Below are positions 4,480 to 14,233 of a stretch of DNA of 52,104 nt, piece after piece. Where the stretch lies: positions 1 to 52,104 of the forward strand of contig JANYJH010000024.1 of the NCBI GenBank assembly GCA_025361865.1, in the 5' to 3' direction. The notes under the pieces were generated by a model. It saw nothing but the letters and a program-made list of their open reading frames with translations, did not search any database and had not been told where the DNA came from. The position numbers were made by a program, and so were the translations under genes. Each line of letters begins with the position of its first letter. The first letter of the stretch is position 1. The DNA comes from Phragmitibacter sp. (GTDB taxonomy: Bacteria; Verrucomicrobiota; Verrucomicrobiia; Verrucomicrobiales; Verrucomicrobiaceae).

Positions 4480-4556
4480 CCAAACGAGGATCTTCGCGAG
4501 CCCTGATGGAATGAGCCTATGGGGAGCGTTTGACTCTGCTGCATCTGCTTCCAGAC

Positions 4557-7178
4557 ATGACTTTCCCGCGTCCTCTTTTGCTCTCCCTTCTTCCCTTCGC
4601 GGTCTTGCATGGGAAGCCTGACGCGCCCCTGAACGCATTCATTGAAGCACACTGCGTGGAATGCCATGACGCTGATACGAAGAAGGGCAGCCTTGATCTC
4701 ACGGCGCTCAAACTGGATGCGGGGAGTTTTGACACTTGGGTAAAGGTGCACGACCGCGTGCGCGCTGGCGAGATGCCGCCGGAGAAGAAGCCGCGCCCTG
4801 AGGCTAAGGAACAGGAGGCGGCTCTGAAGGCGCTCTCAAAGGATCTCATCGCCACGGATACCGCGCGGGAGCTGCGCGATGGGCGCGCACGCTTGCGCAG
4901 GCTGAACCGTGTGGAGTTTGAGAACACGCTGCGTGACTTGCTGGCAATGCCTGCACGGAAGGTGAAAGAGTCGCTGCCGGAGGATGGGAAATCACATGGC
5001 TTCGACCGACTCGCGGGTGCGCTGGACATGTCCTTCGTTCACATGGAATCGTATCTGGCCGCTGTGGACAAGGCTTTGAATGAGGCGCTGTGCCCCTTCC
5101 CAGAACGTCCGCCCGTGTTCAAGTTCCGCCATCAACTCACGGAGAATAACCGCAAGGATGGCAAGGAGTGCGAGGGCTCGGTGGGACTGGCCATTCAGAA
5201 CAAGACGGCCATCGGGCTGATCGGCATGAAGCGGGATGAGAAGCTCATCGCGGATACGGCGCATCACCTCACGGACGGCGAACCCAAGGCCACCGCTATC
5301 GGCATGTTTCGTCACGAAGATGCGGACTATCGCTGGACCATGACGGCGATAGAGCCTGTCATTTCTGGTCTCTACAAATTGCGTGTTTCCGGTTACAGCT
5401 TTGGTTGGGATGGAACTCAAGTCGTGCCCACGGAGCGACACGGCGCGCTGGGCTGGGGCGTCTTCGCCGCGAGCGAGCACTATGGCACCGTTGATCTGCC
5501 ACCGAACAAACCTGCGGTGCGGGAGATCAGTGCTTGGCTGGAACGCGGCGGCGGCATGAACCACGGCACGGATGATTTCCTGCGCATCATCGCGGCGTCT
5601 TGTGAGAACTTCCGCGACTATGCTTTCGGCAAGAACAAGGACGTGATCGGCCCCATGAGCCCTGCGCCGGGCGTCGCGGTCGAATGGGTGGAAATCGAAG
5701 GACCGATCTATGATCAATGGCCGCCTGCGAGCCATCGCGCCTTGTTTGGTGATCTGGCCGTGAAGGAATGGACGAAGGACAGCGGCGTGCCCAAACCGAC
5801 CCAGCAGACGTGGCCACGCGGGAATCCTTATTCGCTCCCGAAGGACATCTATGGCGAACGCGGAGACAAGCGCCCTGTTGTTTATGTGGAAGCCAAGGAG
5901 CCTGCGAAGGACGCCGAGCGCCTGCTGCGGACCTTTCTACGACGCGCCTTGCGTAAGCCAGTGAGCCCTGAGGTGGTCGCAGAGTATCTGGCCAAAGTGA
6001 CGGCTAAACTCGCCGCAGGTGAAGCCTTTCAAGACGCCATGATCACGGCTTATCGCGCCATCCTGACCTCACCCGATTTCATGCTGTTGCACGAGTCCAC
6101 AGGCACGCTGGATGATCATGCGCTGGCCACACGGCTTTCCTATTTCCTCTGGAACACGCTGCCAGATGATGAACTGGCGGCGCTCGCGGACAAGCATGAA
6201 CTCAGCAAACCCGCCACGCTCCGTGCCCAAGCCGAGCGCTTACTGAAGGACAAGCGAGCTGGCCGCTTCATCGAGAACTTCACCGCCCAATGGCTCGCCT
6301 TGCGTGAACTCAATGCCACCCAGCCTGACAAGAAGCTCTACCCGGAATACATGCCGTGGTTGAGCGAGGCGATGCTGATGGAATCCCGCGCTTATTTTGC
6401 GGAACTGTTGCAGAAGGATCTCGGCGTAAAGTATTTCGTGCGATCAGACTTTGCCATGCTCAACGAACCATTGGCAAAGCTTTACGGCATTGAAGGCGTG
6501 CGCGGCTGGGACTTGCAACGCGTCGCCTTGCCCGCTGATAGCCTTCGCGGCGGCTTCCTCACGCAGGCTGCCGTTCTCAAAACCACGGCCAATGGCAGCG
6601 TCACTTCGCCTGTGAAACGCGGGGCCTTTGTCATGGACAAGATTCTCGGAATCGTCCCCACCCCGCCACCACCGAACGCGGGAGCCATCGAGCCTGATGT
6701 GCGCGGAGCCACGACCATCCGCGAGCAGTTGGAGAAGCATCGACGCAATGCGACATGCGCTGGATGCCACGCGAAGATGGACCCTTATGGCTTCGCCTTG
6801 GAGAGCTTCGATGTCGTCGGTGAATGGCGCGGCCAATACCGCGCGATGGGCGTTGCAGGCCGTGATGAAGACCGAAAGCTGGTCAACGGACACCGCATCG
6901 AATACCATGCAGGGTTGCCCGTGGACTGCACCGGTTTGTTGCCAGATGGGCGTCCATTTAAGGATGTGAACGAACTGCGCACGATGCTGGCAGACGATCC
7001 CGAGCGTCTGGCGAGAGCCTTCGTCGGACAATTGGCCACCTATGCGACGGGAGCGGAGATGAGCTTCGCTGATCGCAGTGTTGTTGAAGACATTCTCGCC
7101 AAATCGAAGGTTGCTCATTATGGCATGCGGACTTTGGTTTTGCAGGTGGTGGAGAGTGCGCTTTTCCGGAGCAAGTGA
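4557..7178 (+). CDS. DUF1592/DUF1587 multidomain cytochrome c protein
   Basis: This 873-aa exported protein starts at the ATG at 4557, where a hydrophobic signal begins (MTFPRPLLLSLLPFAVLHG); a TTG nine codons earlier is less likely. The order of parts is a planctomycete cytochrome domain with heme motif CVECH (Cys33, Cys36, His37), DUF1587 (RRLNRVEFENTLRDLL), a carbohydrate-binding-like middle part, DUF1595 (LLRTFLRRALRKPV), DUF1592 (LATRLSYFLWNTLPDDEL), DUF1588 with a second CxxCH (CAGCHAKMDPYGFALESFD) and DUF1585 near the C-terminus. Such proteins in planctomycetes and verrucomicrobia normally sit directly upstream of a DUF1552 gene and are thought to serve periplasmic redox or polymer degradation. 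Here a cassette separates the pair. Confidence 0.92.
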   Translation: MTFPRPLLLSLLPFAVLHGKPDAPLNAFIEAHCVECHDADTKKGSLDLTALKLDAGSFDTWVKVHDRVRAGEMPPEKKPRPEAKEQEAALKALSKDLIATDTARELRDGRARLRRLNRVEFENTLRDLLAMPARKVKESLPEDGKSHGFDRLAGALDMSFVHMESYLAAVDKALNEALCPFPERPPVFKFRHQLTENNRKDGKECEGSVGLAIQNKTAIGLIGMKRDEKLIADTAHHLTDGEPKATAIGMFRHEDADYRWTMTAIEPVISGLYKLRVSGYSFGWDGTQVVPTERHGALGWGVFAASEHYGTVDLPPNKPAVREISAWLERGGGMNHGTDDFLRIIAASCENFRDYAFGKNKDVIGPMSPAPGVAVEWVEIEGPIYDQWPPASHRALFGDLAVKEWTKDSGVPKPTQQTWPRGNPYSLPKDIYGERGDKRPVVYVEAKEPAKDAERLLRTFLRRALRKPVSPEVVAEYLAKVTAKLAAGEAFQDAMITAYRAILTSPDFMLLHESTGTLDDHALATRLSYFLWNTLPDDELAALADKHELSKPATLRAQAERLLKDKRAGRFIENFTAQWLALRELNATQPDKKLYPEYMPWLSEAMLMESRAYFAELLQKDLGVKYFVRSDFAMLNEPLAKLYGIEGVRGWDLQRVALPADSLRGGFLTQAAVLKTTANGSVTSPVKRGAFVMDKILGIVPTPPPPNAGAIEPDVRGATTIREQLEKHRRNATCAGCHAKMDPYGFALESFDVVGEWRGQYRAMGVAGRDEDRKLVNGHRIEYHAGLPVDCTGLLPDGRPFKDVNELRTMLADDPERLARAFVGQLATYATGAEMSFADRSVVEDILAKSKVAHYGMRTLVLQVVESALFRSK

Positions 7179-7218
7179 GATCAATGAAGAATGAACATTG
7201 GAAAATGGTGATTGAAAA

Positions 7219-7587
7219 ATGAGTGAGAAGAAAGGTGAGGAGCTGGAAGAACGGCTGCTGGAATTCGCCGCGCGAATTGGCAAGGTCGTGGATGCTTTGC
7301 CAGATTCTCGGATGGGTAAACATATTGCAGGACAGCTCGTGCGTTCGGGCACTTCGCCAGCGCCCAATTATGGCGAAGCCTGCGCTGCCGAGAGCAAGAA
7401 GGACTTCATTCACAAGCTTTCCATCGTCTTCAAAGAACTACGTGAAAGCCGCGTATGGGTGCGGCTCATCATCAAGGCCAAGCTGCTTCCCAATCCACGC
7501 ATGACCGCTGTTCTTAATGAATGCGACCAGCTCTGTAATATCATCGCTAAGTCGCTTATAACTGCGAAAGCTAATCGTGAACGATGA
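7219..7587 (+). CDS. Four-helix bundle protein (23S rRNA intervening-sequence type)
   Basis: The 122-aa helical protein belongs to the four-helix-bundle/S23 family (TIGR02436-like), recognised by SRMGKHIAGQLVRSGTSPAPNYGEA, split here as SRMGKHIAGQLVRSG then TSPAPNYGEA, plus ESKKDFIHKLSIVFKELRE and the C-terminal ECDQLCNIIAKSL helix. The family was first described inside intervening sequences of 23S rRNA genes and also occurs as stand-alone genes of unknown role. The start codon lies inside the left 42-bp direct repeat, so the repeat supplies the translation start region. The product is probably cytoplasmic. Length is normal for the family. Confidence 0.88.
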   Translation: MSEKKGEELEERLLEFAARIGKVVDALPDSRMGKHIAGQLVRSGTSPAPNYGEACAAESKKDFIHKLSIVFKELRESRVWVRLIIKAKLLPNPRMTAVLNECDQLCNIIAKSLITAKANRER

Positions 7588-7640
7588 ATCAATGCAGTAT
7601 TCTCAGAACCTTCGACATCCCTGTTTCAATGAAAAGTGAA

Positions 7641-7713
7641 CATTGGAAAATGGAAATTGGAAAATGATCCCACGCCAACCCCATCACCATTTTCCAATCT
7701 CCATTTTCCAATG
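7641..7713. repeat. 26-bp inverted repeat downstream of the four-helix-bundle gene
   Basis: Arms 7641-7666 and 7688-7713 are reverse complements with one mismatch, separated by 21 bases. Each arm contains two copies of a TTGGAAAATG-like unit. The hairpin lies between the cassette gene and the DUF1552 start at 7740. It may be the cassette end structure or a terminator for the four-helix-bundle transcript. Confidence 0.8.
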
Positions 7714-7739
7714 ATCCTTTTCCATTTTCCTCTTCTGCC

Positions 7740-9035
7740 ATGAACGCTCCTTATATCAACACCAACCAAGGCCTATCCCGCCGCGCCATGCTTAAAGGCG
7801 TCGGTATCTCTCTGGCTCTGCCGATGCTCGAAGCCATGCGGCCCAGCTTCTTGCGCGCTGCTTCCTCCGTGCCACCAAGACGCTTCGTTGGCATGATGAC
7901 GAACATGGGTATTCTGCCACAGTATTTCTTCCCGGAGAAAGAAGGCCGCGACTATGCGCTGACGCCTTATCTCGATCTTCTTAAAGAGCACCGTGATAAC
8001 CTCACTGTGTTCTCAGGTGTCTCATTGCCAGGCGTCGATGGCGGCCACGCAGCCGAGAAATCGTTCCTCACCGGAGCACCGGGAGCCAGCCGTGGATCGT
8101 TCAAGAACAGCATCTCGCTGGATCAGGTGATGGCTGAAAAGGTCGGTGGAGAAACACGTTTTCCATCGCTCACCCTAATGGTTGGGGCCGAGCAGATGAG
8201 CTGTTCCTGGACGCGCAGTGGCTCGATGATTCCACCGCAACAGAGTCCGCTGAAGCTCTATCAGCAGCTCTTTGTGGAAGATACCGCTGCGGGCAAAGCC
8301 GCCGCCACACGACGTTTGCAGGAGGATCGCAGTCTGCTCGATTCCTTGCGTGACCAAGCCAAGCGCCTAGAGAAGAGCGTCGGTGCTGCGGATCGCGAGC
8401 GCCTTGATCAATACTTCACGAGCGTCCGTGACCTGGAGCAACGCCTTGCGAAAGCCACCGACTGGGTGGATCGGCCTAAGCCCAAAGTCACCCTCGCCGC
8501 GCCGGAAGAAATCAAAGAACGCGATGACCTCGCGAAGAACGAGCGAGTGATGTTTGATCTCGTGCGACTCGCGCTGGAAACCGATTCCACGCGCATCGTC
8601 ACCGTTTGCCTCAACACCGGAAGCCTCACGCCACGCCAAATTCCCGGCGTGAAATCCATGTGCCATGAACTCACGCATCACGGTGGTCGTGAGGAGAAGC
8701 TCAGTGAGCTGCGTCGCATTGAGGAAGCCCAGTTCAGCGCGCTGGCGGAGTTTATGCACGGCATGAGTGCCGCAAAGGAACAAGGCGCATCGCTGCTTGA
8801 TCAAACGTCCATCCTTTACGGAACGAACATGGGCAGCGCTAATGCCCATTCCAACGACAACCTCCCCGTGCTCCTCGCGGGTGGCGGCTTCAAACCCGCG
8901 GGCCACCTCGCCTTTGACAAAAAGAAGAACTACCCGCTGACGAACCTTTACGTCAGCCTCCTCCAACGTCTCGGTTGTGAAGCAGGTAGCTTCAGCAGCG
9001 GCACCAGCACGATGCGTGGGCTGGAGATGGTGTGA
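7740..9035 (+). CDS. DUF1552 protein, Tat-exported
   Basis: The 431-aa protein opens with a twin-arginine signal (LSRRAMLKGVGISLALPML, Arg14-Arg15), so it should be exported folded through Tat. The body matches DUF1552: RRFVGMMTNMGILPQYFFP, FSGVSLPGVDGGHAAEKSFLTG split as FSGVSLPG and GGHAAEKSFLTG, LYGTNMGSANAHSNDNLPV and the C-terminal LLQRLGCEAGSFSSGT. Function is unproven; it is almost always the partner of a DUF1592 cytochrome, as here (4557-7178). No Shine-Dalgarno sequence is visible before the ATG. The upstream sequence is the cassette hairpin, so expression from the original upstream promoter may be affected. Confidence 0.92.
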   Translation: MNAPYINTNQGLSRRAMLKGVGISLALPMLEAMRPSFLRAASSVPPRRFVGMMTNMGILPQYFFPEKEGRDYALTPYLDLLKEHRDNLTVFSGVSLPGVDGGHAAEKSFLTGAPGASRGSFKNSISLDQVMAEKVGGETRFPSLTLMVGAEQMSCSWTRSGSMIPPQQSPLKLYQQLFVEDTAAGKAAATRRLQEDRSLLDSLRDQAKRLEKSVGAADRERLDQYFTSVRDLEQRLAKATDWVDRPKPKVTLAAPEEIKERDDLAKNERVMFDLVRLALETDSTRIVTVCLNTGSLTPRQIPGVKSMCHELTHHGGREEKLSELRRIEEAQFSALAEFMHGMSAAKEQGASLLDQTSILYGTNMGSANAHSNDNLPVLLAGGGFKPAGHLAFDKKKNYPLTNLYVSLLQRLGCEAGSFSSGTSTMRGLEMV

Positions 9036-14114: not shown

Positions 14115-14233
14115 GGGGAATGAAGAATTTAAAATGCGGAATGCGGAATTCTGAAACAGCGAAGACCAATGGTTCACAAAAGATGCGCCTGTAGCTAGAA
14201 CTCATCATTCTTAATTCTTAATTTCATCCCACC

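Follow-up and report, generated by a model that had tools for sequence, protein, structure and literature searches.

A PF05635 gene framed by inverted tandem-heptamer arrays between DUF1592- and DUF1552-type genes of Phragmitibacter sp., with counterparts in many phyla

Intervening sequences (IVSs) with an S23p open reading frame (ORF) have been described in the 23S rRNA genes of Leptospira, Coxiella and others. RNase III cuts rRNA IVSs in their stem; the 23S IVS of Coxiella has a terminal 28-bp stem and tandem GACAGAT heptamers before the ATG of S23, in strain-variable copy number, and the origin and spread of rRNA IVSs are unresolved (PMC4990558). A survey of 7006 prokaryotic genomes reported that, among intergenic tandem repeats, heptamers are the commonest, and that nothing clearly points to what they do (PMC6344855). 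Known heptanucleotide repeats comprise the STRR of Calothrix, GGGAATC in Xanthomonas, GGGGA(C/T)T in Nostoc and TAACTGA in Beggiatoaceae (PMC4692102, PMC4679880).

In the present study a locus of Phragmitibacter sp. was analysed, which lies in a window, i.e. the whole stretch of DNA under analysis, of 52,104 nucleotides (contig JANYJH010000024.1). It shares with rRNA IVSs the PF05635 ORF within terminal inverted repeats, but is situated in a protein-coding operon (DUF1592-DUF1552) instead of an rRNA gene, such cassettes occur many times per genome with a heptamer of their own in each copy, and excision by RNase III would here be assumed by analogy. With STRR-type repeats the arrays have in common the 7-nt period, the intergenic position and AG- or GG-containing units, and Xanthomonas arrays are likewise often inverted pairs; however, STRR-type repeats were described as orphans with one heptamer dominant per genome, and the open-licence literature searched holds no link of theirs to a gene cassette. 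MITEs and IS elements resemble the cassette in inverted ends, intergenic position and gene-less derivatives, but the termini of cassette copies follow no fixed sequence, a transposase was not recognised, and no target-site duplication stands out clearly at the two sites compared, L092 and L087.

Anatomy of the locus and its protein

The cassette runs from a sense array through the gene to a second sense and an antisense array, all built from one tandem 7-mer (Table 1). A preliminary description, made from the sequence alone, had noted 42-bp direct repeats with 37 identical positions around a four-helix-bundle gene, and these were recovered at 7181-7222 and 7626-7667 (88% identity, spacing 445 bp); the pattern of their 25-nt core occurs four times in the window, whereas 100 dinucleotide shuffles gave 0.00 matches. 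The layout sense-gene-sense-antisense nevertheless makes the direct repeat a by-product, and the diagnostic ends are the inverted tandem-heptamer arrays around the ORF. Thus, of the transposase-less mobile cassette bounded by direct repeats that had been proposed, the cassette stands and the direct-repeat ends do not; no transposase is encoded in it. The hairpin seen on the right is present as well, yet its stem measures about 33 bp instead of 26 bp and its second arm repeats the same array in inverted orientation (folding of 7631-7722: -40.2 kcal/mol, z=-7.95). That translation starts in the repeat was borne out, the ATG at 7219 falling within the left array.

Table 1. Features at the DUF1592-DUF1552 junction, in window coordinates
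Feature	Position	Strand	Description	Basis
Upstream host gene	4530..7178	+	PSCyt1/PSD3/PSD5/DUF1592/DUF1588/DUF1585 protein (also given as DUF1587/1592/1588/1585/1595); stop codon 7176-7178	Pfam
Left sense heptamer array	7184..7222	+	ATGAAGA ATGAACA TTGGAAA ATGGTGA TTGAAAA ATGA; includes the ATG of the ORF	
Four-helix-bundle ORF	7219..7587	+	PF05635 (23S_rRNA_IVP / S23), 122 aa	Pfam, predicted structure, PDB fold matches
Right sense heptamer array	7629..7667	+	ATGAAAA GTGAACA TTGGAAA ATGGAAA TTGGAAA ATGA; gives rise to the direct repeat	
Right antisense heptamer array	7688..7735	-	AATGGAA / ATTGGAA units in minus-strand reading; can pair with each of the two sense arrays	
Hairpin from the two right arrays	7631..7722	+	Resembles four gene-less hairpins elsewhere in the genome	
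Downstream host gene	7740..9035	+	DUF1552 (HXXSHH)	Pfam

A second, gene-less array is found in the window at 14118-14220 (GAATGAA GAATTTA AAATGCG GAATGCG GAATTCT); downstream of it lies a weak inverted partner.

The gene had been placed in the family known from 23S rRNA intervening sequences, and the 122-aa ORF indeed matches PF05635 (E=1.4e-13, 51.4 bits, gathering cut-off 33.8). An AlphaFold model reached a pLDDT of 96.9, and fold comparison returned 2rld and 2gsc as top PDB matches, followed below significance by Avd of diversity-generating retroelements (4dwl/8ub7; TM ~0.74, E ~0.06), to which the predicted fold is similar; a PDB sequence search with the window protein gave no Avd match.

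Array anatomy across genomes and change of the units

The genome of the window contains ten PF05635 genes, nearly all of which, inspected singly, are framed by inverted 7-mer arrays whose words differ from locus to locus (AAAGTCC, AGTAGTC, TTAAGAA, AGTGATG, TTTTGGA, TTGAACN etc.). Among 38 relatives of the same order, 33 possess PF05635 genes, with up to 11 per genome, and flanking inverted repeats at a score of at least 16 were detected at 83 of 95 loci (87%) compared with 1.1% of 366 controls; the score takes the best local match, and controls were handled identically. Autocorrelation within these arms amounted to 0.57 at lag 7 and 0.55 at lag 14, against a level of about 0.27. In a set drawn from more than 15 phyla such flanks occur at 63 of 80 loci (79%; controls 1.5% of 480), again with peaks at lags 7 and 14, while some loci use 8- or 9-mers. 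Many of the surveyed loci stem from MAGs. Conversely, sampled genomes contributed 844 ORFs with a length of 240-900 nt, and heptad inverted flanks were found at only eight of these, seven being PF05635 genes and the eighth a spurious ORF within a gene-less hairpin. A comparison of cassette ends in many copies had been suggested in the preliminary description; the inverted heptamer-array anatomy is a family-wide trait of PF05635 genes in many phyla.

The 42-bp sequence itself did not hold up as a mark of the family. The heptamer differs at nearly every locus; over 125 loci the unit follows the skeleton AG[TG]NNNN and the left arm is rich in G (positive GC skew in 87%), and at a score of at least 16 the arms of one locus pair in 82% of cases versus 2.9% across loci. 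No fixed sequence marks the ends; they are characterised by the 7-nt period and the similarity of one arm to the other. Most cassettes lie within operons in the sense of transcription: 101 have the same orientation as both neighbours, compared with 15 that are opposed to both, a bias that fits a constraint at the RNA level. None of the PF05635 loci scanned showed a 23S motif, and phage records gave just two partial matches. As a single case, a PF05635 gene was observed between cas6 and cas4 in the type I-D CRISPR operon of the Anabaena sp. 90 plasmid pANA02 (L314).

The two arms of a cassette change in concert. At the ilvB-ilvN junction of four congeners the flanking coding DNA is conserved, and the heptamers of both arms have changed together (AGTAAAA/AGTGAAA versus AGGGATA); between loci L156 and L159 the difference in array units amounts to about 90 nt. 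Exact copying between arms was rejected, since unit order hardly exceeds that of shuffled arrays (p<0.05 at 19% of loci). Given this weak match, the property that is preserved may be something other than strict stem pairing, and shared units may count more than perfect pairing. That the protein dictates the heptamer was likewise discarded, its similarity being weakly correlated with that of the heptamers (rho 0.25).

Occupied sites, empty sites and arrays without the gene

The two host genes had been described as normally adjacent, and an empty junction had been suggested for search. Five paralogous DUF1592-DUF1552 pairs in the same genome were found without a cassette, with gaps of 10-28 bp (upstream proteins of three of the five confirmed by Pfam). 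In a sister genus (G002) a heptamer cassette occupies the same junction (L092), its protein being 71% identical to that of the window and its start codon likewise within an array, whereas the junction in a congener of G002 (G012, C6:359826-359869) spans only about 42 bp and has no cassette. At ilvB-ilvN the four congeners carry the cassette and G012 a pseudogene cassette, while the site in G002 is empty (C1:5820774-5820831, compared with the occupied L087). Arrays and gene form one unit: of junctions that are otherwise orthologous, some have it and others lack it. Within single MAGs, moreover, two pairs of copies (L154/L163 and two in L155) are about 88% identical in unrelated flanks, with the identity stopping at the arrays. 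Presence and absence together with these same-genome copies point to a mobile cassette, although some empty sites could represent clean loss instead of gain. No target-site duplication is evident at L092 and L087, where the intergenic flanks have diverged. The L066 site yields no clean empty counterpart, because the junction is taken up by other genes; a dispersed repeat of about 75 bp with tens of copies in g2 genomes, unrelated to the heptamers, lies at 4535-4609 of that locus.

Junctions with similar neighbours, of the PSD1-DUF1501 and DUF1592-DUF1552 types, hold cassettes repeatedly (L010, L043, L064, L073, L101, L102; L006, L009, L054, L079, L092, L192), and at some of them the PF05635 proteins are very divergent.

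On these grounds we consider it likely that the feature is a stand-alone IVS-type cassette, consisting of one PF05635 ORF within inverted tandem-heptamer arrays. A competing view would regard the arrays as independent STRR-type repeats and the gene as a passenger, brought in by insertion into existing hairpins or by recombination between them. Arrays without the gene speak for it: the heptamer of the window recurs at four gene-less hairpins of its own genome (C195, C42, C91, C433), the preliminary description having suggested a search for its repeat with and without the gene; further gene-less hairpins are built from other heptamers, such as two GTTCTTG/GTTCCTC elements on contig C322 (L304; 2675-2825 and 4012-4168), arranged sense-sense-antisense like the window; G002 retains a solo array at the L084 site, from which the gene is absent, and G001/G011 keep heptamer residues at the L066 site. 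In G025, in which no PF05635 gene was detected, 21 arrays were counted in 200 kb, which refutes a confinement of heptamers to PF05635-bearing genomes, and in the sample of G011 solo arrays outnumber paired ones (0/13 paired). The cassette thus cannot fully account for heptamer repeats. Against a mere passenger stand the two empty sites devoid of heptamers (G012 for L092, G002 for L087), the same-genome copies that bring matching arrays into unrelated flanks, and the near absence of paired heptad flanks from ordinary genes of the same genomes, so that we regard this view as unlikely.

As side observations, the two C322 elements are slightly more than 1 kb apart and follow another PF05635 cassette (L006) on its downstream side at a distance of about 1.6 kb, and the solo arrays of G025 (L373-L382) are of one heptamer type, ATCGTCC/ATCGTAA, recalling GGGAATC of Xanthomonas.

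Mobility through a reverse transcriptase partner, as for Avd in diversity-generating retroelements, would agree with the Avd-like fold and with a sense bias compatible with an RNA intermediate. However, no reverse transcriptase and no template or variable repeats lie near the window cassette, the own genome (91% complete) has no RVT_1 match at 1e-8 despite its ten cassettes, eight of 16 cassette-rich genomes likewise lack such a match, and the counts are uncorrelated (rho 0.12, n.s.); this partnership was rejected as very improbable. Slightly less probable still is a REPIN-like mobilisation of the arrays in trans by Y1/RAYT transposases. PF05635 and Y1_Tnp counts do correlate in 38 genomes (rho 0.65, or 0.43 with p=0.007 once genome size is accounted for), but heptamer arrays flank 0 of 20 Y1 loci (0 in 46.7 kb), and most of these carry REP-type inverted repeats of their own, for which reason this candidate was dropped, too. 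The Y1/RAYT genes inspected (L319-L338) are mostly framed by long, GTAGCCC-like repeats of this kind. Vertical descent of a normal operon gene with incidental repeats, to which junctions kept across genera would lend some weight (ilvB-ilvN in the four congeners; L006, L072 and L079, about 85% identical), is hardly credible and was rejected, as it is contradicted by the empty paralogous and orthologous junctions, by about ten different sites per genome, by unrelated proteins at the same junction type (window versus L006, 16% identity) and by similar copies in different flanks.

Proposed working and significance of the cassette

For the stand-alone IVS-type cassette the following course of events may be envisaged. 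In the transcript the arms would pair, with the stem enclosing the small gene, and RNase III probably cleaves this array stem by analogy with rRNA IVSs; an insert between co-transcribed genes would be tolerated because the stem is probably so processed. For the ORF, the purine-rich left array would also serve as start region. Spread of the unit presumably takes place at the DNA level, through an activity which the cassette does not encode or which is not recognisable. Array units would turn over fast by slippage while both arms are kept similar; possible binding partners of the pentameric S23 protein are the arrays or their RNA.

In a wider and more tentative reading, which we hold to be possible but less likely than its opposite, PF05635 cassettes constitute a distinct and very widespread class of mobile elements, the ends of which are recognised by period and mutual similarity instead of a fixed sequence, each lineage having its own 7-mer (in some cases an 8- or 9-mer) that is altered jointly in the two arms. 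Together with their gene-less derivatives they would then be a main source of intergenic heptamer repeats, and rRNA IVSs would represent those members whose insertion site was an rRNA gene.

Until now the PF05635 gene was known mainly from rRNA inserts. An S23/IVS gene framed by inverted heptamer arrays in many phyla, within operons and at sites empty in relatives, ties the question of heptamer-repeat function to that of IVS origin, and comparisons of strains and assays with RNase III make both open to test. For proteins that bear the annotation 'four helix bundle protein' or 'S23 ribosomal protein', it is suggested that most represent cassette genes, not ribosomal proteins, and the design of the cassette may contribute to an explanation for the high frequency of 7-letter tandem repeats in bacterial intergenic DNA.
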